A stretch of 32,239 nt of DNA from Paracoccaceae bacterium (lineage in GTDB: Bacteria > Pseudomonadota > Alphaproteobacteria > Rhodobacterales > Rhodobacteraceae): positions 1 to 32,239 of the forward strand of contig JAHDDY010000041.1 of assembly GCA_020629115.1 (NCBI GenBank), in the 5' to 3' direction. This document shows positions 1,281 through 12,246 of this stretch, one piece after another. Each line of letters opens with the position of its first letter. The first letter of the stretch is position 1. Below the pieces are notes generated by a model that worked only from the letters and a program-made list of their open reading frames with translations, was not told the DNA's origin and ran no database searches. A program made the translations under genes and the position numbers.

Positions 1281-2336
1281 TTGGCAGAGATCATTCTATC
1301 GGGCGTCTCCAAGCGGTGGGGTAGCTTCGTCGGCGTCGATAAATTCGATCTGACCATACCGGATCGCGAATTCCTAGTGCTTCTCGGCCCCTCCGGCTGC
1401 GGCAAGACGACGACCATGCGCATGATCGCGGGACTCGAGGACCCGACCGACGGCGAGATCCGGATCGACGGCAGGGTCGTGAACGATCTGGAGCCGAAGG
1501 ACCGCGACGTGGCCATGGTGTTCCAGAGCTACGCGCTCTATCCGAACATGAACGTCTACGAGAACATCCGCTTCCCCCTGCGTGTGCGCGGCATCGACGC
1601 GGGCACCCACGACGCGAAGGTGCGCCGGGCCAGCGCGATGGTCGAGCTGGACGAGTTCCTGCACCGCAAGCCCGCCGAACTGTCGGGCGGCCAGCGCCAG
1701 CGCGTCGCGCTCGCCCGGGCCATCGTGCGCGAGCCGAACGTCTTCCTGATGGACGAGCCGCTGTCGAACCTCGACGCGAAGCTGCGCGTCTCGACCCGCG
1801 CGCAGATCAAGAACCTCAGCCACGAGCTGTCCGTCACCACGATCTACGTCACCCACGACCAGATCGAGGCGATGACCCTGGCCGACCGGGTGGTCGTCAT
1901 GGAGAAGGGCATCGTGCAGCAGGTGGGCAGCCCGACCGAGATCTACGACCGCCCCGCCAACACCTTCGTCGCCAGCTTCATCGGCAACCCGGCCATGAAC
2001 CTGATGCAGGGCCGCGCGACGGGCGGCACCTTCCGCACCGACAATACCGAGATCGCCGGCCTCGACGTGCGGGACGGCCCCGTCACCCTGGGCTTCCGCG
2101 CCGAGGACGCGACGGTCGTCGGTCCCGACGAGGGCGGGCAGATCACCGCGCCGATCTACACGCTGGAGCTGCTCGGCGAGGCGACCATGGTCAGCCTGCG
2201 CATCGCGGGCGAGCTGGTCAGCGCCAAGGCCGACAAGACCTTCCGCGCCGAGATCGGCGATACCGTCTCCATCCGCATTCCGCCCGAACAATGCCATCTG
2301 TTCGATGCAGGCTCGGGCGCGCGCATCGGGGGCTGA
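1281..2336 (+). CDS. CUT1-type sugar ABC transporter ATP-binding protein (UgpC/MsmK-like)
   Basis: The 351-residue ATPase should power the two permeases encoded downstream. Visible motifs are Walker A GPSGCGKTT (36-44), Q-loop Gln81, signature LSGGQ (133-137), Walker B VFLMDEP (153-159) and switch His191. A C-terminal regulatory domain of the MalK/UgpC kind follows from about residue 235. The start is taken as TTG 1281, preceded by GGGGGA, because family members begin at this point (AEIILSGVSKRWG). In-frame GTGs at 1227 and 1236 are alternatives. The frame stays open far upstream only because it is antisense to the SnoaL-like gene. It is the first gene of ATPase, binding protein, permease, permease. 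Confidence 0.9.
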   Translation: MAEIILSGVSKRWGSFVGVDKFDLTIPDREFLVLLGPSGCGKTTTMRMIAGLEDPTDGEIRIDGRVVNDLEPKDRDVAMVFQSYALYPNMNVYENIRFPLRVRGIDAGTHDAKVRRASAMVELDEFLHRKPAELSGGQRQRVALARAIVREPNVFLMDEPLSNLDAKLRVSTRAQIKNLSHELSVTTIYVTHDQIEAMTLADRVVVMEKGIVQQVGSPTEIYDRPANTFVASFIGNPAMNLMQGRATGGTFRTDNTEIAGLDVRDGPVTLGFRAEDATVVGPDEGGQITAPIYTLELLGEATMVSLRIAGELVSAKADKTFRAEIGDTVSIRIPPEQCHLFDAGSGARIGG

Positions 2337-2380
2337 ACCCCGGGCCACGAATACCAACGAACGATATCTGGGAGAACGAC

Positions 2381-3610
2381 ATGTTCATCAAGACCATCAC
2401 CGCCGCCAGCCTGATCGCGCTCGCCGCGCCGACGCTGGCCATGGCCTGCGAGATCGGCGCGCGCGTCAGCGTCGTGGGCAACGAATTCCCCGCCATCCAG
2501 ACGGTCGGCGCGGGCGCGCAGGAATGCGAGGGAGGGGAGGTCACGACCAACCTGACCGCCGATCACCAGACCATCAACCTGCCGGGCATGCAGGGCAACC
2601 CCGCCGAGTACACCTCCGCCATCATCGCCAACTCCTCGATCGTCGCGCTGATGAACGAGGATGTCATCCGGCCCCTGGGCGACCTGATCGAGAAGCACGG
2701 CAAGGATCTCCAGCCCACGCAGATCATCACCATCGGCGGCGAGCCGATGGCGGTCGCCTTCATGGCCAACGCCCAGCACCTCGTCTACCGCGCCGACCTG
2801 CTCGAAGAGGCGGGCCTCGACGTCCCGACGACCTACGAGGAGATGCTCGAAGCGGCCAAGACGCTGCGCGAGAAGGGGATTTCCGAGAACCCGGTGGGCG
2901 GCCCCTACAAGGCGGGCTGGAACCTGGCGCAGGAATTCAACAACATGTTCCTCGGCCATGGCGGCACGCACTTCAAGGACGGCACCGCCGAGCCGAACGT
3001 CAACACCCCCGAGGGCGTGGCCACGCTGGAGATGATGAAGGCGCTGGCCGAGTACATGAACCCCGACTACCTGACGCATGATTCCAACGGCACGAACGCC
3101 GAGTTCCGCGCCGGCAACGTCGCGCTGATGCACATGTGGGGCAGCCGCGCGGCCACTATGACCGACGCCGACGGCGTGCCGCAGGAAGTCGTCGACGGCT
3201 TCGCCATCGCCGGGCCGCTGACGGTCGGCGGCGGGGAGACCCCGGCCTCGACCCTGTGGTGGGACGGGTTCACGGTCGCCAAGAACATCCCCGACGAGGA
3301 GGCCGAGGCCACCTTCGTCGCCCTGATGCACGGCATCCGCCCCGAGATCCTCGAAGACGAGGAGACCGCCAAGCAGGCCGTGTGGCTGATCGAGGGCTAC
3401 AAGCCGACCGAGGCGGCCAAGGGCGTGTTCGCGGCGGCGCAGTCCGGCACGATCCCCTACCCCATGCTCCCCTACATGGGCCTGCTGCACACGGCGCTCG
3501 GTAACGAGCTGTCCGACTTCATGCAGGGCAAGGAAAGCGCGGAGCAGGCGCTCTCGGACGTCGAGGCCGCCTACACCGCCGCCGCCAAGGAACAGGGCTT
3601 CCTGAAGTAG
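2381..3610 (+). CDS. Extracellular solute-binding protein, sugar ABC transporter
   Basis: This 409-residue periplasmic protein has a clear signal peptide, with cleavage likely after ALA-MA near residue 22. The mature part matches the SBP_bac_1 layout for sugars and oligosaccharides. The start is ATG 2381 with GGGAG six bases ahead. Two cysteines at residues 23 and 49 flank the mature N-terminus and could form a disulphide. No ligand can be assigned from sequence alone. It lies 44 bp after the ATPase and 127 bp before the first permease. That second gap carries a paired hairpin element that may let this gene be expressed above the membrane subunits. Confidence 0.9.
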   Translation: MFIKTITAASLIALAAPTLAMACEIGARVSVVGNEFPAIQTVGAGAQECEGGEVTTNLTADHQTINLPGMQGNPAEYTSAIIANSSIVALMNEDVIRPLGDLIEKHGKDLQPTQIITIGGEPMAVAFMANAQHLVYRADLLEEAGLDVPTTYEEMLEAAKTLREKGISENPVGGPYKAGWNLAQEFNNMFLGHGGTHFKDGTAEPNVNTPEGVATLEMMKALAEYMNPDYLTHDSNGTNAEFRAGNVALMHMWGSRAATMTDADGVPQEVVDGFAIAGPLTVGGGETPASTLWWDGFTVAKNIPDEEAEATFVALMHGIRPEILEDEETAKQAVWLIEGYKPTEAAKGVFAAAQSGTIPYPMLPYMGLLHTALGNELSDFMQGKESAEQALSDVEAAYTAAAKEQGFLK

Positions 3611-3621
3611 GCCACACATAC

Positions 3622-3708
3622 CTCTGCCCCGGCCTTGCAGTTGCAGCGGGGCCTCTCTCCACAAAGCACATCGATGGAGAGAGGCCCCGGATCGGGTCCG
3701 GGGCAGAG
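3622..3708. repeat. Paired palindromic intergenic element (copy 2), within the ABC operon
   Basis: Outer arms CTCTGCCCCGG (3622-3632) and CCGGGGCAGAG (3698-3708) are perfectly complementary. Inside them, GGCCTCTCTCC (3650-3660) pairs with GGAGAGAGGCC (3677-3687). Each half can also form its own CCCCGG/CCGGGG hairpin. It fills most of the gap between the binding-protein and first permease genes. Its ends match the copy at 31848. Confidence 0.85.
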
Positions 3709-3737
3709 CTTTCCCTCCCCTCATCACTCCGGGTTCA

Positions 3738-4763
3738 ATGAAACATCGCACCTTCTTCTGGTTCTTCCTGCCGACCGGGCTGGCGATGCTCCTGTTCATT
3801 GCGCTTCCGCTCGTATCGGTGATCATCCAGTCGACCCACGCCCCGCACGAGGCGGTGTTCCGCACGGTCGAGAACTGCGGCCCGTTCGGCTGCGTGGAGG
3901 AGACCACCATCGACCAGGAGGCGACCCGGGCGATCCGCGACGCCGAGCCGCTGGGCCGCTTCGTCGGCCTCGACATCTACCTCGACCGCGGTCACCTGGC
4001 CGCGCAGGAGGTGGGCGAGGCCTGGGCGAACCGGGAGAGCATCGGCGACTTCCTCTCGCGCCTCGGCAACCTGCCCTTCTACCGCGCGATGGCCTTCACG
4101 CTGACCTACACCTTCACCGTCACGCCGCTGCTCATCGTGCTCGGCCTGATGATCGCGCTGGCGGTCAACACGGTGACGCAGCGGCTCAAGGGCTTCATCA
4201 TCTTCTTCTCGCTGCTGCCGATGATCGTGACGCCCCTCGTCGGCTCGCTGATCCTGTTCTGGATGCTCGACAGCCGCGGGGTGCTCGGCACCTTCATCCA
4301 GTGGGCGGCGAACGATCCGGACCTGTCGCTCAAGGCTTCGACTCCGCTGACCTGGGCCATGCTCATCGTCTACGGCATCTGGAGCTCGGCGCCCTTCGCC
4401 TTCGTCGTCTTCTACGCCGGTCTCCAGACCCTGCCGCAGGACCAGATCGAGGCGGCGCAGATCGACGGCGCGACCCGGTGGCAGCAGGTGAAATACGTCA
4501 TCGTCCCGCACCTCATGCCCCTCGTCACCTTCGTCGCGCTGATCCAGCTCATGGACAATTTCCGCGTGCTGGAGCCGATCATCGGCTTCAACGCGCAGGC
4601 GCACGCCACCTCGCTCTCGTGGATCATTCTCAACGATCTCGGCGGCGAGACGCGCCAGCTCTCGGCGGCCTCGGCGACCTCGGTGATGACCATCCTCGGC
4701 GTCGCGATCCTGCTGACGCCCGTCCTCATCCGCACCTGGCGCGATTTCAGGAGCAAGACCTGA
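3738..4763 (+). CDS. Sugar ABC transporter permease 1 (MalF/UgpA-like)
   Basis: This 341-residue inner-membrane protein has a first membrane helix at about 8-30. A hydrophilic segment of about 85 residues follows, then a cluster of five or so helices from about residue 115 to the end. The EAA loop that contacts the ATPase is visible as IEAAQIDGATRWQQ and the following VIVPHLMPL. The long segment after helix 1 carries a C-x-x-x-x-C pair (NCGPFGC) and is probably periplasmic, recalling the P2 loop of MalF. The start at 3738 has no good Shine-Dalgarno sequence. The stop overlaps the start of the next permease by one base. Confidence 0.9.
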   Translation: MKHRTFFWFFLPTGLAMLLFIALPLVSVIIQSTHAPHEAVFRTVENCGPFGCVEETTIDQEATRAIRDAEPLGRFVGLDIYLDRGHLAAQEVGEAWANRESIGDFLSRLGNLPFYRAMAFTLTYTFTVTPLLIVLGLMIALAVNTVTQRLKGFIIFFSLLPMIVTPLVGSLILFWMLDSRGVLGTFIQWAANDPDLSLKASTPLTWAMLIVYGIWSSAPFAFVVFYAGLQTLPQDQIEAAQIDGATRWQQVKYVIVPHLMPLVTFVALIQLMDNFRVLEPIIGFNAQAHATSLSWIILNDLGGETRQLSAASATSVMTILGVAILLTPVLIRTWRDFRSKT

Positions 4764-5644
4764 TGGCTTCCAAGGCCCAACGCGCCCCCCTCGGCCTACG
4801 CCTCGCGACGGGCGGGTTCGTCGTCGTCTGGCTGATCCTCGCGGCCTTCCCGTTCCTGTGGACGCTGTGGGGGTCGTTCAAGGTCGAGCTGGACTTCTTC
4901 TCCATCGCCGACTGGACCAACGCCCTGACCGGCGAGAATACCGAGAAGGTCTACGGCACGCCCTTCACCGGCGCGGGCTATCGCGGGGCCTGGGTGCAGG
5001 AGGAGTTCTGGCGCGCGGTCATCAACACGTTCGTCGTGTGCTTCTTCGTGGTCTGCACCTCGCTGACCATCGGCACGCTGGGGGGCTACGCCCTGTCGCG
5101 CTCGGGGTTCCGCTACACGTTCTGGCTGCTCATCATCGCGCTGATCTTCCGCGCCATGCCGCCCGTGACGCTCGTGTCGGGCTACCTGCTGCCCTTCTTC
5201 GAGTGGAACGTCTGGGGCATCCTGCCGACCGCCATCATCGTGCTGGTCGCCATCAACCAGCCCTTCACGCTGTGGATGCTGCATTCCTTCTTCCAGAACA
5301 TCCCCAAGGAGCTGGACGAGAGCGCGAAGGTCGACGGCTGCACCCAGTTCCAGGCCTTCCGCCACGTCATCGTGCCGGTCATGTGGCCGGGGGTCATCAC
5401 GACGGGATTGTTCAGCTTCCTGCTCGCCTACAACGATTTCGTGGTGACCGCGATGCTCCTGTCCGAGAGCAACCGGACCATGATTCCCGAGATCGCCGCC
5501 TTCCTCGGCACGACCCAGACCGAGGGCAACGTCATGTTCGCCGTCGCGGCGGTCGTCTCGGCCACGGCCCCGCTCTTCGTGCTGGTCATGTTCTTCCAGC
5601 GCCAGATCGTCAGCGGCCTGACGGCGGGGGCTGTCAAGGGGTGA
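4763..5644 (+). CDS. Sugar ABC transporter permease 2 (MalG/UgpE-like)
   Basis: This 293-residue permease completes the CUT1 importer. It starts at ATG 4763, sharing its A with the TGA of permease 1, so the two are likely translationally coupled. Helices run from about residue 15, with a periplasmic insert around 40-85 and five more helices after it. The EAA loop reads LDESAKVDGCTQFQ, followed by VIVPVMWPG. The product should pair with permease 1 in the inner membrane. A perfect ten-base hairpin lies 23 bp after the stop. With two SnoaL-like genes flanking the operon, the substrate is probably processed by this gene block, but that is inference. Confidence 0.9.
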   Translation: MASKAQRAPLGLRLATGGFVVVWLILAAFPFLWTLWGSFKVELDFFSIADWTNALTGENTEKVYGTPFTGAGYRGAWVQEEFWRAVINTFVVCFFVVCTSLTIGTLGGYALSRSGFRYTFWLLIIALIFRAMPPVTLVSGYLLPFFEWNVWGILPTAIIVLVAINQPFTLWMLHSFFQNIPKELDESAKVDGCTQFQAFRHVIVPVMWPGVITTGLFSFLLAYNDFVVTAMLLSESNRTMIPEIAAFLGTTQTEGNVMFAVAAVVSATAPLFVLVMFFQRQIVSGLTAGAVKG

Positions 5645-5667
5645 GGCGCGGTCGGCCGCAGGCCGAT

Positions 5668-5690
5668 GAAACGTGCCAGTGGCACGTTTC
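5668..5690. terminator. Perfect hairpin after the ABC operon
   Basis: GAAACGTGCC (5668-5677) pairs with GGCACGTTTC (5681-5690) across the loop AGT. It sits 23 bp after the permease stop. There is no clear T-run, so it may be a 3' mRNA-end stabiliser or repeat rather than a classic intrinsic terminator. Confidence 0.5.
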
Positions 5691-5899
5691 AAGCGCCGAA
5701 CGCCCGAGCAAAGCGAGGGCCGAAGGACGTCAACCCTCTCGCCGACCCCCTATCCATCCACAACTCCGCAACACTTGTTCGAACGCGATTCTCAGAAGCC
5801 TTCCGGAAAAACCGATCGTCCCGAAGATATCGAGTAGTATCGTCCACCCAACCCGACCAAGTGACCTCGAACTGCGAGCATCGGCGTTTGTTGCCCTGG

Positions 5900-5922
5900 A
5901 TCGCCCGGTCGAGCCGGGCGAT
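5900..5922. repeat. Single palindrome of the dispersed family
   Basis: ATCGCCCGG-TCGAG-CCGGGCGAT, nine-base arms with a five-base loop. The core is identical to the right half of copy 1 at 130-152, but no second hairpin accompanies it. Confidence 0.8.
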
Positions 5923-6091
5923 GACGGTGGAGATATTAAGCACCGACACCCCTGACCGGCCCTCTCCCACGCTCGAAAAACGACCGTCCACGGAACACCG
6001 CGACGCGGCCATCCGCCCGGTTTTCATGGACTTTTAACCGACTTTAAGGCAGACCGGACAGGCGCGGATTTTCCGCACAATGGAGACGATT

Positions 6092-7240
6092 ATGAGTGAA
6101 CCGCTTAGCGGGCGGTCGGCATCGCCGCATACCGGCGATCTTTCCACGGCCGAACAGACCTACATTCCCTCGGATGCGGACATAGCATCGTTTGAGACAA
6201 ATTCCACCGTTTCGCCGCCCCTGACGACAGAATCCTTCGCCGGCACGCCGATGCGGGGTTTCGACCCGAAATTCCGGAACTTCCCCGACTACATCATCGG
6301 CATCACCAAGGAGATCTGGGAAGACCGGGGCATCGCGACCCTGCACGACTACTACGCGCCCGACATCGTCGTCCGCTCGCCCGAGGCGGTGGTGCGCGGC
6401 AATCGGGGCGTCATCGCCGCGACCATGGCGACGCTGGCCGAGTTCCCGGATCGGCAGCTCCTGGGCGAGGACGTCATCTGGTCGGGCACGCCCGAGACGG
6501 GGATGCTCTCCTCCCACCGCCTGTTCTCGACCGCCACGCACCTGAACGCCGGTCTCTACGGCCCGGCGAGCGGCGTGCAGTTCCGCTACCGCATCCTCGC
6601 CGACTGCCACGCGCGGAACAACGCCATCGACGACGAATGGCTGATCCGCGACCAGGGCGCCATTGTGCGGCAGATGGGGCTGGACCCGGTCGCCTACACC
6701 CGCGACCTGATCGCGCGCGAGGGCGGGCCGGAGCGCTGCATCAAGCCGCTCACCCCCGCGACCGACATCCAGGGGCCGTATACCGGCACGGGCAACGAGA
6801 ACGAATGGGGCCAGCGCCACGCCGGCATCCTGAACCGGATCATGAACGCCGACATGGCGACCATCGAGCGCGAGTACGACCGCGCCGCCTGCGTCGCCTA
6901 TCCCGGCGGCGTGGAGGGGTATTCCTTCGACCTGGTGGACAGCTTCTGGATGGGCCTGCGCGCCGCCTTCCCGAGCGCCGAGTTCGAGATCCATCACCAG
7001 ATCGGCCGCGACGACCCGGCCATGCCCCCCCGCTCGGCCCTCCGCTGGAGCCTGAAGGGCCGGCACGACGGCTACGGCGCGTTCGGCCCGCCCACGGGGG
7101 CGGAGGTCTACGTCCTCGGCATCTCCCATGCCGAGTTCGGCGCGGTGGTGCCCGGCCAGGTGAAGCTGCGCCGGGAATGGACGCTCTACAACGATATCGC
7201 CGTCTGGAAGCAGATCCTGCTCCAGACGGGGGCGCTCTGA
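6092..7240 (+). CDS. Double SnoaL-like (NTF2-fold) protein, second copy
   Basis: The 382-residue product again shows two NTF2-fold halves, roughly residues 60-195 and 235-380, after a polar N-terminal tail. Motifs such as SPEAVVRGNRGV in the first half and WTLYNDIAVWKQ at the end of the second fit the SnoaL-like fold. The start is set at ATG 6092 because GGAGA stands five bases ahead. The in-frame ATG at 6080 has no ribosome site. It has the same two-domain build as the protein at 165-1187 but is clearly diverged from it, so the two may act on successive intermediates. It leads a plus-strand set with the bicupin, HAD-like and MetE-like genes. The reaction is unknown. Confidence 0.82.
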   Translation: MSEPLSGRSASPHTGDLSTAEQTYIPSDADIASFETNSTVSPPLTTESFAGTPMRGFDPKFRNFPDYIIGITKEIWEDRGIATLHDYYAPDIVVRSPEAVVRGNRGVIAATMATLAEFPDRQLLGEDVIWSGTPETGMLSSHRLFSTATHLNAGLYGPASGVQFRYRILADCHARNNAIDDEWLIRDQGAIVRQMGLDPVAYTRDLIAREGGPERCIKPLTPATDIQGPYTGTGNENEWGQRHAGILNRIMNADMATIEREYDRAACVAYPGGVEGYSFDLVDSFWMGLRAAFPSAEFEIHHQIGRDDPAMPPRSALRWSLKGRHDGYGAFGPPTGAEVYVLGISHAEFGAVVPGQVKLRREWTLYNDIAVWKQILLQTGAL

Positions 7241-7257
7241 CGCCGGACGATTGTTTC

Positions 7258-7280
7258 GGTCCCGGGCTTGACCCGGGGCC
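7258..7280. repeat. Single palindrome of the dispersed family
   Basis: CCCGGG-CTTGA-CCCGGG, extended by GG on the left and CC on the right around a T-G pair. It lies in the 123-bp gap between the SnoaL-like and bicupin genes. Confidence 0.7.
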
Positions 7281-7363
7281 TCCCCATGCGTGACGCTGGC
7301 ACGGATCGAATGCGTCCGGCATGGAGCCAGCGCGCGATATCGACCCAATGCATCGAGAGACCC

Positions 7364-8329
7364 ATGACCCCCGCCGACATGGAAAGCCGCATCGTCCGCT
7401 ACGGCGACCTGCGCCCCTGCAAGACCGCCTTCATCGACGCCCACACCCCCGGCAGCGACACGAAGGAGAATTTCACCATCATCGGCGGCGGGGTCAGCGA
7501 AAGCCCCGACCAGCACGTCCACATCGCGATCCCCCACGGCTTCAACATCGGCGCGGCGGGACAGCCGCCCCGGTGCCGCAACTCGCTGCATTCGCATCGC
7601 ACGGCGGAGGTGTTCTTCGTCCTGTCGGGGCGCTGGCGCTTCTTCTGGGGGCGCCGGGGCACGGCGGGCGAGGTGGTGCTGGAGAAGGGCGACATCTTCA
7701 ACATCCCCACCGGCATCTTCCGCGGCTTCGAGAATATCGGCACCGATTACGGGATGATCATGGCCATCCTCGGCGGCGACGACGCGGGGGGCGGCGTCAT
7801 CTGGGCGCCGCAGGTGATCGAGGACGCGCGCGACCACGGCCTCGTCCTGTCCGAGCGCGGCAAGCTGTACGACACGAAGGCGGGCCAGGCCCTGCCGGAC
7901 GGCGTGCGCCCCATGCCGCTGCTGACGGAGGAGGAGCTGGACGGCTATCCCGAGCCGGAAGCCGCCGACGTGGTGCCGCGCCACGTCGCCCGCTACTGGG
8001 ACCTCGTGGCGCTGGCGGATCGCAGGCCCGCGAAGGTCATCGGCGAACATGGAAAACTGCGCGACCGACCCGGCTTCGAGGTCGACCTCGTCACCCGCAC
8101 CTCGGCGACCGACGCCATGCACCGCCACGACCGCCCGTCCGTCCTCATGCCCGTCACCGGCCACTGGCGGGTCACTTGGACGGGGGGCGAGGCGGTGCTG
8201 GCCCCCGGCGACACCATGAGCGTGCCCGAGACCGTCGATCACGCGGCGGTGCCCGCCATGTCGGGCGAGGCGGCGCTCTACCACATCGTCGGCACCGACG
8301 ATCCCGCCGGACCGACCTGGAACGGTTGA
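7364..8329 (+). CDS. Bicupin domain protein
   Basis: The 321-residue product has two cupin barrels. The first centres on HSHRTAEVFFVLSGRW (about residues 75-95). Its second motif includes GDIFNIPTGIFRGFEN. The second barrel, about residues 245-315, has MHRHDRPSVLMPVTGHW and a GDTMSVPE turn. Histidines in the first motif of each barrel could bind a metal, as in bicupin dioxygenases and isomerases, but the second barrel's later histidine motif is less canonical. The start is ATG 7364 with GAGAG ahead, chosen over upstream in-frame ATGs in the repeat-bearing gap. It lies between a SnoaL-like gene and the HAD-like gene, suggesting a shared pathway. No substrate can be named. Confidence 0.85.
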   Translation: MTPADMESRIVRYGDLRPCKTAFIDAHTPGSDTKENFTIIGGGVSESPDQHVHIAIPHGFNIGAAGQPPRCRNSLHSHRTAEVFFVLSGRWRFFWGRRGTAGEVVLEKGDIFNIPTGIFRGFENIGTDYGMIMAILGGDDAGGGVIWAPQVIEDARDHGLVLSERGKLYDTKAGQALPDGVRPMPLLTEEELDGYPEPEAADVVPRHVARYWDLVALADRRPAKVIGEHGKLRDRPGFEVDLVTRTSATDAMHRHDRPSVLMPVTGHWRVTWTGGEAVLAPGDTMSVPETVDHAAVPAMSGEAALYHIVGTDDPAGPTWNG

Positions 8330-8372
8330 AATCTGCCGAGGGGTGGAACGGCCCCGGGTGCGACATATCTGA

Positions 8373-8397
8373 CGGGTCTCTCACACAAGGAGACCCG
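8373..8397 (+). promoter_or_regulatory. Hairpin covering the ribosome binding site of the HAD-like gene
   Basis: CGGGTCTC (8373-8380) is fully complementary to GAGACCCG (8390-8397), with loop TCACACAAG. The Shine-Dalgarno AAGGAG spans 8387-8392, so its GAG is in the stem, just before ATG 8400. If the hairpin forms, it would limit translation starts. Confidence 0.5.
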
Positions 8398-8399
8398 CC

Positions 8400-9047
8400 A
8401 TGCCCGCCCTCTTCTTCGGTTCCATCGGCACCCTCGCCGAGACCTCCCGCATCCAGCTCGACTGCTTCAACGAAGCCTTCAAGGAGGCCGGTCTCGACTG
8501 GCACTGGTCCGAGGACGACTACCGCGTCATGCTCGGCGACGCGGGCGGCGCGAGCCGCATCGCGCGCCATGCCGAGACGCGCGGCGAGATCGTCGACGCC
8601 GATGCCATCCATGCCCGTAAGAGCGCGCTGTTCCAGCACCGCCTCGCCCACGGCATCCCCCTGCGCCCCGGCGTCGAGGAGACGATGAAGGCTGCGCGCG
8701 ACAAGGGGTGGCAGCTCGCCTTCGTCACCACCACCTCCCGCGAGAACGTAGAGGCCATCCTGAAGGCGACCGGCCTGAAGGCCGAGGCGTTCGACCTCGT
8801 GACGGATGCCGGACAGGTCGAGCGGACCAAGCCCGACCCCCAGGCCTACGAGATCGCCCTGTCGCGGCTCGGCCTCGCCGCCGGCGATGCCGTCGCGGTA
8901 GAGGACAATCCCGACGGGGCCAGGGCCGCCCGCGCCGCCGGGATCGACTGCATCGCCTTCCCCGGCGCCATGCACGACGCCGGCGCCTTCCTCGACGCGC
9001 GCACGGTCACCGACCGGCTCGACCCCGAGGTGGCGATGGCGGCCTGA
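8400..9047 (+). CDS. HAD-superfamily fold protein lacking the catalytic aspartates
   Basis: The 215-residue product follows the CbbY/phosphoglycolate-phosphatase subfamily from end to end. Motif II is Thr110-Thr112, motif III is Lys144 (RTKPDP) and motif IV is Glu168-Asp169. Motif I, normally D-x-D-G-T, reads F-G7-S-I9-G-T-L. Both the nucleophile and the acid/base aspartate are therefore absent. With no nucleophile, ordinary phosphatase chemistry is not expected. The protein may bind a phosphorylated ligand, act as a regulator, or use another mechanism. The start at 8400 has AAGGAG ahead, partly inside a hairpin. It sits between the bicupin and MetE-like genes. Confidence 0.85.
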   Translation: MPALFFGSIGTLAETSRIQLDCFNEAFKEAGLDWHWSEDDYRVMLGDAGGASRIARHAETRGEIVDADAIHARKSALFQHRLAHGIPLRPGVEETMKAARDKGWQLAFVTTTSRENVEAILKATGLKAEAFDLVTDAGQVERTKPDPQAYEIALSRLGLAAGDAVAVEDNPDGARAARAAGIDCIAFPGAMHDAGAFLDARTVTDRLDPEVAMAA

Positions 9048-9059
9048 GCCGCGTGACGG

Positions 9060-9095
9060 GGCAGGAAATGCGCGACACCGCGCGCGTTTCCTGCC
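9060..9095. other. 15-bp stem hairpin between HAD-like and MetE-like genes
   Basis: Bases 9060-9074 pair with 9081-9095 over 15 positions (one T-G), leaving a six-base loop ACACCG. No T-run follows, so an intrinsic terminator is doubtful. It could be an mRNA processing or stability element. The arm CAGGAAATGCGC is also the inner arm of the 96-bp element at 19781-19876. Confidence 0.65.
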
Positions 9096-9140
9096 AGAAC
9101 GGGTCCGCACGATCCGTATCGCCAGCGAGAGGCCCCGTCG

Positions 9141-10262
9141 ATGACCGTCCTGACCACCCATGTCGGCTCCCTGCCCCGGACGCAGGACGTCGTCGATTTC
9201 ATCTTCGCCCGCGAGCACGGCAAGGACTACGATCCCGGCGCGTTCGATGCCGCCATGACGTCGGCCGTGGCCGAGACGGTGCGGCGGCAGAAGGAGGCGG
9301 GCGTCGATATCGTCAGCGACGGCGAGACCTCGAAGATCAGCTACGCGACCTACGTGAAGGACCGCTACACCGGCTTCGACGGGGACAGCCCGCGCAACGC
9401 CCCGGCGGACCTCAAGCGGTTCCCCGGCTTCCTCAAGCGCCTCGCCGACGATGGCGGCACACCGCAATACGCGCGCCCCATGTGCGTGGGCGAGGTGCGG
9501 TCGAAGGGTCAGGGCGAGCTGGAGAAGGACATCGCCAACCTCAGGGCGGCGATGGAGAGCCACGGCATCGAGCGCGGCTTCATGAACGCCGCCTCGCCCG
9601 GCGTCATCTCGCTGTTCCTCCAGAACGACCACTACCCCACGCGCGACGCCTATCTCGCCGCGCTGGCCGATGCGATGAAGGCGGAATACGAGACCATCGT
9701 CGCCTCCGGCCTCGACCTCCAGCTCGACTGCCCGGACCTGGCGCTGTCGCGGCACATGCTGTTCAACGACCTCTCCGACGAGGATTTCCTGAAGATCGCG
9801 GCCAGCCATGTCGAGGCGCTGAACCACGCGCTATCCGACGTACCCGAGGAGAAGGTGCGCATCCATATCTGCTGGGGCAACTACGAAGGTCCGCATGTCT
9901 GCGACATCCCCATGGCGACGATGTTCGACACGCTGATGGGCGCCAAGGCGCGCTACGTCCTGTTCGAGACCTCGAACCCGCGCCACGGCCACGAATGGAC
10001 CGTCTTCCGCGACCGCAGGGGCGATATCCCGGATACCAAGGTACTGGTGCCCGGCGTGGTGGACACGACGACCAACTTCGTCGAGCATCCCGACCTCGTG
10101 GCCCAGCGCATCGCGCGCTTCACCGATATCGTGGGCGAGGAGCGGGTCATCGCCGGCTCCGATTGCGGCTTCGGCACCTTCGCGGGCTTCGGCGCGGTGG
10201 ACCCGGATATCGCCTACGCGAAGCTCGGCGCGCTGGCCGAGGGGGCGAAGCGGGCGGGCTGA
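9141..10262 (+). CDS. MetE-like (cobalamin-independent methionine synthase II family) zinc methyltransferase
   Basis: The 373-residue product corresponds to the catalytic barrel of MetE without its N-terminal half. It begins with TTHVGSLPR, as family members do. The four zinc ligands expected from MetE are present: His242 and Cys244 (HICWGN), Glu276 (LFETSN) and Cys342 (SDCGFG). Related single-domain proteins transfer alkyl groups to thiols, for example epoxyalkane:coenzyme M transferase and betaine- or methylcobalamin-linked enzymes. The lack of the N-terminal domain argues against a folate-dependent methionine synthase. ATG 9141 has GAGAGG ahead. It closes the SnoaL, bicupin, HAD-like set, so transfer of a methyl or alkyl group from a pathway intermediate is a reasonable guess. 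Confidence 0.88.
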   Translation: MTVLTTHVGSLPRTQDVVDFIFAREHGKDYDPGAFDAAMTSAVAETVRRQKEAGVDIVSDGETSKISYATYVKDRYTGFDGDSPRNAPADLKRFPGFLKRLADDGGTPQYARPMCVGEVRSKGQGELEKDIANLRAAMESHGIERGFMNAASPGVISLFLQNDHYPTRDAYLAALADAMKAEYETIVASGLDLQLDCPDLALSRHMLFNDLSDEDFLKIAASHVEALNHALSDVPEEKVRIHICWGNYEGPHVCDIPMATMFDTLMGAKARYVLFETSNPRHGHEWTVFRDRRGDIPDTKVLVPGVVDTTTNFVEHPDLVAQRIARFTDIVGEERVIAGSDCGFGTFAGFGAVDPDIAYAKLGALAEGAKRAG

Positions 10263-10302
10263 CCGCGCGGGGACCGGCGTTCGGCCCCCCACCGCGAATC
10301 AG

Positions 10303-10350
10303 GACCGCCGTACCGGGAACCGCCCCTGCGGCGGAACGGCGGTCTTTCCT
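10303..10350 (+). terminator. Terminator-like hairpin after the MetE-like gene
   Basis: GACCGCCGT (10303-10311) pairs exactly with ACGGCGGTC (10336-10344) and is followed by TTTCCT. The 24-base loop can itself fold (CCGC/GCGG). It should separate the MetE-like unit from the YeeE-type transporter gene. Confidence 0.6.
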
Positions 10351-10409
10351 GCGCCCCGGGGCGGCGGAATCGCTGGAACCGGGCGGTTCCGCCTCCGATA
10401 TGCGACCTC

Positions 10410-11477
10410 ATGACACTGATAGACATCATGGAACGCTTCGGGGACGCCGAGACCATGGCGCTCGCGGGGCTTGCGGTCGGGGCGGCGTTCGGGTTCGCGG
10501 CGCAGGCATCGGCCTTCTGCCTCCGGGCGGCGACGGTCGAGCTTGGCCGGGGCGCGGGCGGGTCGCGGCTCGCCGTCTGGCTGCTCGCGGCGGCGGCGGC
10601 GGTGCTGGGCACGCAGATGCTGGCGCTCGGCGGCCATGCGGATCTCTCGATGTCGCGCTATCTCGACCAGGGCGGCTCGCTGTCGGGCGCGCTGCTGGGC
10701 GGAGCGCTGTTCGGGGCGGGCATGATCCTGTCGCGGGGCTGCTCCGGGCGGCTGCTGATCCTGTCGGGCACGGGCAACCTGCGCGCGGTCTTCGCGGTCG
10801 TCGTCTTCGCGCTGACGGCATGGCTCGCCTATGGCGGGGCGCTGGTGCCGGTGCGCGAGGCCATCACCGGCCTGTGGCAAAGCCCGGTCGGCGCGGCGGA
10901 GGCGACGGGGCTGCTGGGCCTCGGCATGTATGGCGGCGTCGCCATCGGCGCGGTGCTGCTGGCCGTGGCCGTGGCGGTCGCCATCCGCACCCGCGCGGGC
11001 TGGCTGGCGGGCATCGCCGCGCTGGCCACGGGCGGGGCCATCGTCGCGGGCTGGTGGGCCACCTCCTCGGTCGCGGCCCTGTCCTTCGACCCGATGGACG
11101 TGGAGAGCGTCACCTTCTCGCGCCCCTTCGTCTTTCTCGTGGAAGGGTTCGCCGGGGCCGCGCCGCTCCTGAGCTTCGGCACGGCGATGATCGGCGGCGT
11201 GCTGGTCGGCGCGTTCCTCTCGGCCCTCCTGCGCCGCGAGGTGCGGGTGCAGGGCTTCGCGAGCGTGCGGGACGTGCCGCGCTACGCCCTGGGCGCGGTG
11301 CTGATGGGCATCGGCGCGGTGGCGGCGGGGGGCTGCGCGACCGGCGCACTGACCGGCGCGACCACCTTCGCCGTCGCGCCCCTGCTGGCGCTGGCGGGCA
11401 TCGCGGGCGGGGCGATGGTCACGGACCGGCTGATCGACCGCGCCCCCGCCCCGCGCCTGTCGCCCGCGGCGGCCTGA
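10410..11477 (+). CDS. YeeE/YedE family sulfur-compound transporter (TsuA-like)
   Basis: This is a 355-residue, very hydrophobic inner-membrane protein with about ten helices. YeeE/TsuA proteins carry thiosulfate and related sulfur species using conserved cysteines. Cysteines here are Cys37 (ASAFCLRAA), Cys111 (LSRGCSGRL) and Cys309 (AAGGCATGA), each in a family-type context. The length matches characterised members at about 350 residues. The start is not certain. ATG 10410 has no clear ribosome site, and ATG 10428 is possible. It ends 16 bp from the converging SDR gene. A terminator-like hairpin separates it from the MetE-like gene, so a joint role in sulfur metabolism is only suggestive. 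Confidence 0.85.
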   Translation: MTLIDIMERFGDAETMALAGLAVGAAFGFAAQASAFCLRAATVELGRGAGGSRLAVWLLAAAAAVLGTQMLALGGHADLSMSRYLDQGGSLSGALLGGALFGAGMILSRGCSGRLLILSGTGNLRAVFAVVVFALTAWLAYGGALVPVREAITGLWQSPVGAAEATGLLGLGMYGGVAIGAVLLAVAVAVAIRTRAGWLAGIAALATGGAIVAGWWATSSVAALSFDPMDVESVTFSRPFVFLVEGFAGAAPLLSFGTAMIGGVLVGAFLSALLRREVRVQGFASVRDVPRYALGAVLMGIGAVAAGGCATGALTGATTFAVAPLLALAGIAGGAMVTDRLIDRAPAPRLSPAAA

Positions 11478-11493
11478 CCCGCATTCCGGCGCG

Positions 11494-12246
11494 TCAGGTT
11501 CGCAGCGCCGGCAGCCCCACCCCCGTCGCTTCGAACCCGCCATCGGCGGCGATGACCTGTCCGGTGACGTAGCTCGCCTCCGGGGAGCACAGGAACGCGA
11601 TGACCCGCGCGATCTCGTCCTCCGAGCCGTAGCGGTTCAGGGGGATGGCGTCATGGTAGGCGTCGACGATCTCCTGCGTATGCACCGCCATGGCCAGCTT
11701 CGTGCGCACCGGGCCGGGACAGACGCAGTTCGCGCGGATGCCGTATTCGCCCAGTTCCGCCGCCTGCTGCTTCGTCAGCTGGATCACCGCCGCCTTGGAG
11801 GTGCCGTAGGCGATGCGCAGGGTCGAGGCGCGCAGGCCCGAGATGGAGGCGATGTTGACGAGGCATCCCCGCGTCGCCTTCAGCGCGGGCGTCGCGGCCT
11901 GGGAAACGAGGAACGTCCCATCGAGGTTGGTCGCCATCACCGCGCGCCAGCGGGCGAAGTCGGTCTCCTCCACGGGGCCGAAATCGGCGACGCCCGCATT
12001 GTTCACCACCGCGTCGAGGCGGCCGAAGGCCTCGACCGTCTCCGCCACCATGCGCGCGGCGGCATCCGGATCGGCAATATCGGCGATGATGGCGCGGGCG
12101 CCGTCGAGCGGCGCGGCGGCCTCGGTAAGCGCTTCTTCATCCCGGTCGACCATGGCCACCCGCCAGCCGCGCTCCAGCAGGAGCCGCGTCGTCGCGAGGC
12201 CGATGCCCCGGGCCGCGCCGGTGACGAGGGCGGTGCTGGTGGTCAT
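11494..12246 (-). CDS. Short-chain dehydrogenase/reductase (SDR)
   Basis: This 250-residue cytosolic oxidoreductase has a classical SDR fold. Visible motifs are TGAARGIG (9-16) for the cofactor, NNAG (82-85), a catalytic serine in NIASIS (134/136), and Tyr147 and Lys151 of YxxxK. Asp34 at the end of the second strand suggests NAD(H) rather than NADP(H). The C-terminal VTGQVIAADGG is also typical. ATG 12246 has GGGAG eight bases ahead. It follows the glutathione transferase gene on the same strand, with a paired palindromic element between. The substrate is unknown. Confidence 0.92.
   Translation of the reverse strand: MTTSTALVTGAARGIGLATTRLLLERGWRVAMVDRDEEALTEAAAPLDGARAIIADIADPDAAARMVAETVEAFGRLDAVVNNAGVADFGPVEETDFARWRAVMATNLDGTFLVSQAATPALKATRGCLVNIASISGLRASTLRIAYGTSKAAVIQLTKQQAAELGEYGIRANCVCPGPVRTKLAMAVHTQEIVDAYHDAIPLNRYGSEDEIARVIAFLCSPEASYVTGQVIAADGGFEATGVGLPALRT

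Follow-up and report, generated by a model that had tools for sequence, protein, structure and literature searches.

A CbbY-like HAD protein family without motif I aspartates, found mostly in light-using bacteria

The window protein compared with CbbY

In the HAD superfamily, the D-x-D of motif I provides the nucleophile and the acid/base. CbbY, a xylulose-1,5-bisphosphate phosphatase of this superfamily with solved structures from R. sphaeroides (4UAR/4UAT) and Arabidopsis (4UAV), is the closest solved relative of the protein considered here, by both sequence and fold. HAD pseudophosphatases in general keep the fold and lose catalytic residues; a bacterial pseudophosphatase derived from CbbY was not found among the literature matches listed, which covered few subscription papers. 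We have analyzed a stretch of 32,239 nucleotides (the window; assembly GCA_020629115.1, contig JAHDDY010000041.1) from a Paracoccaceae bacterium, which encodes a CbbY-like protein with an altered motif I. Genomes are given below as G numbers and loci as L numbers. The gene has the following features.

8400–9047 (stop included), + strand: CbbY-like HAD protein lacking both aspartates of motif I; ATG start, 215 residues
8415–8435, + strand: motif I, residues 6–12, F-G-S-I-G-T-L (D-x-D-G-T in CbbY), from DNA, translation and alignment
8445–8456, + strand: residues 16–19, S-R-I-Q, with Ser16 and Gln19 at the Glu and His places of the D-x-D rows, from alignment
8727–8735, + strand: motif II region, T110-T111-T112, from translation and alignment
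8829–8831, + strand: motif III, Lys144 (Lys in 50 of the 51 main-clade rows described below)
8901–8906, + strand: motif IV, Glu168-Asp169 (Glu in 50 and Asp in all 51 of these rows)

On the one hand, the window protein resembled CbbY. In the sequence search, its top solved relatives were 4uat/4uar, R. sphaeroides CbbY (1.5e-34), and it is 36–38% identical to the R. sphaeroides chains. The AlphaFold model, predicted from six input sequences with a mean pLDDT of 94.6, ranked CbbY first both in Foldseek (TM 0.89) and in VIA-align (215 residues at rmsd 2.1, Z 28.6). The chains 4uar, 4uau and 4uat matched the model over its full length with Z 28.6–28.3, rmsd 2.0–2.1 and 36% identity, and the next fold match was Arabidopsis CbbY at Z 24.4. 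By domain match and by this predicted fold, the protein belongs to HAD class IA, with a core and a cap and a full-length match to solved members.

On the other hand, both motif I aspartates are replaced, as the earlier note had claimed and as DNA and translation confirm, and Ser16 and Gln19 stand in place of the Glu and His of CbbY. The title of 4uat names the second aspartate as D10, for which the window equivalent is Ile9; the CbbY of G064, a genome of the window's family, is the printed 4uat sequence save the engineered residue. Pfam HAD_2 (E=1.6e-25) begins its match at residue 10, past the missing aspartates. Among the NCBIfam models of HAD-IA and beta-phosphoglucomutase type, the window protein passed the cut-off of TIGR01509 (55.1 bits against 29.4) and fell far below that of TIGR02009 (75.5 against 153.35), and it differs from these types in having no D-x-D. 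The motif III lysine and the acidic pair of motif IV are present, again as claimed earlier. In its own assembly, the protein has a single further match, a 27% relative.

Motif I across relatives

The search covered 394 genomes from 393 genera of the window's family, which we take to be Rhodobacteraceae as defined by GTDB, together with 289 genomes of its class and 398 of its phylum, and motif I was read in those matches that were available as loci. An initial alignment of 18 sequences, the window among them, showed G7 to be invariant. In a quick, midpoint-rooted tree of 135 rows, from which L168 was left out, a single branch (SH-aLRT 100) splits 58 rows that lack both aspartates, the window included, from 77 D-x-D rows, among them R. 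sphaeroides-type CbbY (L061). The earlier note had regarded D-x-D homologues as a sign of local mutation or sequencing error. Such homologues do exist, but they stand on a separate branch, so the loss is not a local mutation.

The 58 rows consist of a main clade of 51 and a second clade of seven. The G-S-I-G-T singled out earlier reads G-[SA]-[IVL] in the nearest homologues, which form the main clade: Gly7 is found in 51 of 51 rows, Ser8 in 42, and residue 9 is Ile in 46, Val in 3 and Leu in 2, so that no row has an acid at either lost place. Ser16 is found in 48 and Gln19 in 47 rows. Beside Lys144, Glu168 and Asp169, R53 (50 of 51) and K74 (47 of 51) are conserved. In the 77 D-x-D rows, D7, D9 and H19 are invariant and E16 is present in 75. 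The contrast at residues 7 and 9 is far from what chance would give. The two sets differ by six residue switches, at positions 7, 8, 9, 16, 19 and 78, and the window protein has N24, W34, W36, R53, K74, R89, K144, E168 and D169 in common with the D-x-D rows.

The second clade without D-x-D comprises L184, L202, L204, L215, L229, L237, L146 and, by motif only, L168. In its seven tree rows, the motif III lysine is replaced by A or P, and Glu168 by V, A or a gap.

Members without D-x-D come from many genomes in two phyla. Outside the window's family, they occur in Alphaproteobacteria (G661, G564, G513, G616 and G508) and in an actinobacterial metagenome-assembled genome of Nitriliruptoraceae (L004). 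One scan of viral contigs gave no relative.

Considering that there is neither a nucleophile nor an acid/base, the phosphoaspartate chemistry of the superfamily cannot run, and we regard the loss of classical phosphatase chemistry in the window protein as nearly certain. Judging from its sequence, the protein probably has no phosphatase activity of any kind. As the D-x-D was looked for and is missing, the D-x-D-less proteins do not qualify as CbbY phosphatases. Because a whole protein family, occurring chiefly in light-using bacteria, has the same loss, the protein seems to be a retained "dead enzyme" and not the product of a mutation. The sole annotated copy seen, ROLI_RS23305, is labelled as an HAD-IA hydrolase even though the chemistry of that family needs the lost acids, and caution is advisable when CbbY function is transferred by homology. 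Roseobacter litoralis B14 has a homologue on pROLI81.

Phototrophy and upstream sequences

As a marker of phototrophy, the reaction-centre family PF00124 was scored in the same 394 family genomes, 166 of which were positive. It was present in 36 of 40 carriers of the D-x-D-less gene and in 130 of 354 non-carriers (Fisher p 4e-11, kinship ignored). Genomes with only D-x-D matches differ from the carriers in this respect, with PF00124 in 17 of 63; among the 103 family genomes with a match, G158, whose motif I was unread, was counted as D-x-D. Carriers of the main type as judged by motif were positive in 30 of 31 cases (the exception is G184), and those of the main clade as judged by tree in 30 of 33 (p 1e-9, kinship ignored), the two counts differing because G370 and G061 are set apart by their residues and belong to the main clade by tree. 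Second-clade genomes had reaction-centre genes in 7 of 8 cases (the exception is G198). The four carriers without PF00124 are thus G184, G370 and G061 from the main clade by tree and G198 from the second; the rhodopsin family PF01036 was searched for in G198 and G370 and not found. Five further carriers (G007, G008, G873, G968 and the genome of L003) were all PF00124-positive, the first four being from genera already in the sample.

The six carriers outside the family were all without PF00124 and all with rhodopsin PF01036, whereas among 50 class genomes that gave no match, taken as consecutive handles and not by random draw, 5 had rhodopsin. G434, from the same group as the carrier G661, has no match to the gene, yet it is rhodopsin-positive.

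At the threshold used, a carrier match was absent from 130 of the 166 PF00124 genomes, which indicates that the gene is not needed for phototrophy. The PF00124 genes of the window genome lie on a separate contig (C218); no photosynthesis genes are immediate neighbours of the window copy, which accordingly is not placed in a photosynthesis gene cluster. Among the literature matches listed, none was found on an HAD gene with phototrophy.

The neighbourhoods were read in 46 stretches, that is, 45 loci and the window, with five genomes supplying two or more. BchJ- or BchE-like genes lie beside the gene in 5 of 46 (L120, L122, L123, L124 and L137), where BchE and BchJ were each scored on one representative and the remaining members were assigned by similarity. 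A PAS protein is a neighbour in L151 and L152, and an HWE-type kinase in L145.

Upstream of the gene, we considered the consensus GGAAC-N16/17-[CG]GTT, described for EcfG of Rubellimicrobium thermophilum in a study that also has the EcfG general stress response controlled by HWE/HisKA2 kinases, some of them light-sensing (PMC12148442). In the 220 bases before the gene, 7 of 46 copies have a strict site of this type, compared with 0 of 242 other genes from these stretches; GGAACC alone precedes 13 of 46 copies and 5 of 242 genes. The 46 stretches are non-independent, and GGAACC was first spotted by eye in them, the strict consensus being taken from print. The seven strict sites begin 54–76 bases before the start codon and may place these copies in the EcfG general stress regulon of Alphaproteobacteria. 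The other 39 copies have no strict site; the window copy, which is one of them, differs in being short of the full motif and has only the following elements.

8345–8349, + strand: GGAAC, possible EcfG-type -35 element, 55 bases before the start, not followed by [CG]GTT at the required distance
8319–8323, + strand: second GGAAC (-81), with no partner, from the upstream sequence

As its GGAAC has no correctly spaced [CG]GTT, the signal is weak in the window copy. Two other motifs were tried and rejected: TGT-N12-ACA, a PpsR-type site, was seen upstream of 1 of 46 copies and 12 of 242 genes, and TGATC upstream of 15 of 46 and 94 of 242, neither being enriched. The window also has an inverted repeat, GGGTCTC/GAGACCC, at 8373–8396 around the likely ribosome-binding site, with unexceptional folding energy; an RNA hairpin over this site did not stand out (z -1.66; 14 of 200 shuffles fold equally well).

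Based on these results, we propose, at about an even chance, that the window protein is a pseudophosphatase from a CbbY-like ancestor that has been kept as a binder of a phosphorylated ligand in light-using bacteria. Both motif I aspartates would have been lost in a capped CbbY-type HAD family, an event that the tree requires no more than once, and selection would then have retained the D-x-D-less family. Considering that Lys144 of motif III and the acids of motif IV are retained along with R53 and K74, a phosphorylated sugar-like ligand would most likely still be bound; K144, R53 and K74 are assumed here to be ligand contacts. In light-using bacteria, the protein would most likely act as a regulator that responds to its ligand, or as a scaffold, because its distribution tracks phototrophy and a stress promoter, or neighbours of pigment, sunscreen-type or light- or stress-signalling kind, are found with some copies. 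The D-x-D-less proteins may work like other pseudoenzymes. A conserved dead enzyme tied to phototrophy offers a testable entry to metabolic and stress sensing in light-using heterotrophs.

The association could also be incidental, with the gene passed down in lineages whose phototrophy is a coincidence and serving an unrelated household or stress role. The association figures ignore kinship, 13 of the 46 copies share a place near the gene of the carbamoyl-phosphate-synthase large chain (carB), and general-stress sites are compatible with any stress. Against this, the 394 family genomes represent 393 genera, and the D-x-D-only genomes trend in the opposite direction. Moreover, phototrophy is scattered in Rhodobacteraceae, at 44 of 105 strains with 32 losses under one hypothesis (PMC6052148), which speaks against a single shared ancestry as the sole cause. 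We consider incidental inheritance somewhat unlikely.

Gene neighbourhoods and other possible roles

The window gene lies in a cluster of catabolic type, the members of which were assigned by domain scan and orthologue comparison.

2291–3610, + strand: ABC transporter solute-binding protein of the bicupin/MetE-like cluster
6080–7240, + strand: SnoaL-like gene of the same cluster
7268–8329, + strand: bicupin gene immediately before the D-x-D-less gene, same cluster; its start codon is uncertain
9141–10262, + strand: MetE-like (Meth_synt_2) gene downstream, same cluster

Further downstream, a sulphur-transport (PF04143) gene at 10410–11477 is overlapped by a long open frame of the opposite strand at 10299–11543.

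This cluster, which we call type A, has transporter, SnoaL-like, bicupin and MetE-like genes and mostly also histidinol-dehydrogenase-like, LacI, alpha/beta hydrolase and RraA-like genes. It was seen at 2291–10262 of the window and at L003, L128, L143, L144, L158/L246, L243 and L244, with 68–79% identity to the window for the bicupin and 68–86% for the MetE-like protein. We know of no pathway assigned to it. A methylated cyclitol or a mycosporine-type compound is a candidate substrate, in keeping with a putative set of steps comprising hydroxymethyl oxidation, methyl removal, ring opening and RraA-type cleavage. The cluster may represent one pathway that the window protein serves; nothing in the homarine catabolism literature was tied to it among the matches listed.

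The earlier note had suggested testing binding to the bicupin or MetE-like protein, and a link to these neighbours gains some support from part of the copies. Bicupin and MetE-like orthologues were found beside the gene in 6 of 46 stretches (the window, L003, L128, L144, L143 and L158), and a seventh, L157, has a partial cluster at a contig end, where permease, D-x-D-less gene, SDR and SnoaL follow one another closely; the other 39 copies are situated elsewhere. In the window, L003, L128 and L144, the gene sits between the bicupin and MetE-like genes. In L143, it is placed after the MetE-like gene, and in L158, the cluster of which continues in L246, it precedes the solute-binding gene by about 2 kb, a distance that takes in an ABC gene and one SnoaL gene of the opposite strand. 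A fixed partnership seems doubtful, since the bicupin and MetE-like genes are 21 bases apart on Marinovum algicola pMaD9 and 3 bases apart on Octadecabacter arcticus pOA238_160, with no gene between and no match to the D-x-D-less protein in the stretches read of the two plasmids. The gene thus appears optional for the cluster yet repeatedly close to it. The Sinorhizobium medicae pSMED01 stretch has a bicupin, with no MetE-like or D-x-D-less protein match at 1e-8.

These arrangements raise the possibility that the protein is an accessory of the bicupin/MetE-like pathway, binding an intermediate or a protein and recruited in several lineages. In the tree, L143, L157 and L158 stand apart from the other four cluster copies, suggesting that gene and cluster may have come together on more than one occasion. 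Considering also that the neighbourhoods are varied and that 7 of 46 copies lie near one metabolic cluster, the role may concern a pathway rather than light. However, most copies are outside such clusters, and on the two plasmids the gene is missing between the bicupin and MetE-like genes. In addition, among L003, L128, L144 and L143, the D-x-D-less protein is less alike to that of the window (39–60% identity) than are the bicupin (71–79%) and the MetE-like protein (74–86%), and the strict EcfG-type site of L128, located between the bicupin and D-x-D-less genes, indicates that the gene may be expressed apart. We therefore judge a pathway accessory unlikely.

Elsewhere, the neighbourhoods are diverse. 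In 11 of 46 stretches, there is a class II aminoacyl-tRNA synthetase that has a GAD domain and is probably the aspartyl enzyme, a cyclopropane-synthase-like gene adjoins in 5, and a TauD-family gene occurs in 5, directly adjacent in 4. In the first 18 kb of the window, 16 ORFs were scanned, some of which are possibly not genes, and no Calvin-cycle (cbb) family was found in them.

In an actinobacterial (L004, 3074–9797) and an alphaproteobacterial locus (L160, 2943–8689), the D-x-D-less HAD gene lies within mycosporine-type clusters with MysA-D-like genes, beside dehydroquinate-synthase-like, methyltransferase, PRK06849-type and D-Ala-D-Ala-ligase-like proteins, a set typical of mycosporine-like amino acid clusters; the L004 cluster ends in a TauD-family gene. 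The Mys names are putative labels, as are the methyltransferases, which were read by eye. A mycosporine link as the general role was rejected: a MysA-like query matched 30 of 38 carrier genomes, at full length only in its source G508 and as partial matches of 24–29% identity in the remaining 29. No MysA-D-like genes were found among the 16 window ORFs scanned, and the window genome gave only a partial 28% match. Taken together, the occurrence in two biosynthetic clusters of mycosporine type from different phyla, the repeated proximity to the candidate ring-breaking cluster and the phototrophy by bacteriochlorophyll or rhodopsin would allow a narrower reading, in which the dead, ligand-holding protein of CbbY-like origin has a part in light stress and in the metabolism of sunscreen-type compounds (mycosporines or methylated cyclitols), and this we regard as quite unlikely.

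Alternatively, the protein may be an enzyme with new chemistry, in which the pocket has been re-tooled (Ser8, Ser16 and Gln19 with Lys144 and Glu168/Asp169) for, e.g., an isomerization or elimination without phosphoaspartate. The new polar residues near motif I are common in the main clade, much of the pocket is retained, and copies occur in metabolic clusters, two of them sunscreen-type. However, the diverse neighbourhoods are ill-suited to one pathway step, and the main clade offers no acid at the lost places; on balance, new chemistry seems distinctly improbable.

Recent inactivation, decay or sequencing error, for which nothing speaks beyond the odd motif, is practically ruled out by a loss common to all 58 tree rows, by an open frame without a stop and by dN/dS of 0.17 and 0.29 in two close pairs, which represents purifying selection and, with the conserved site residues, bears out the view of the earlier note that the gene is under constraint.

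One genome, G354, has two copies of the gene (L151 and L152) on different contigs of its assembly. Their proteins are 80% identical, and the two loci have eight neighbour clusters in common.
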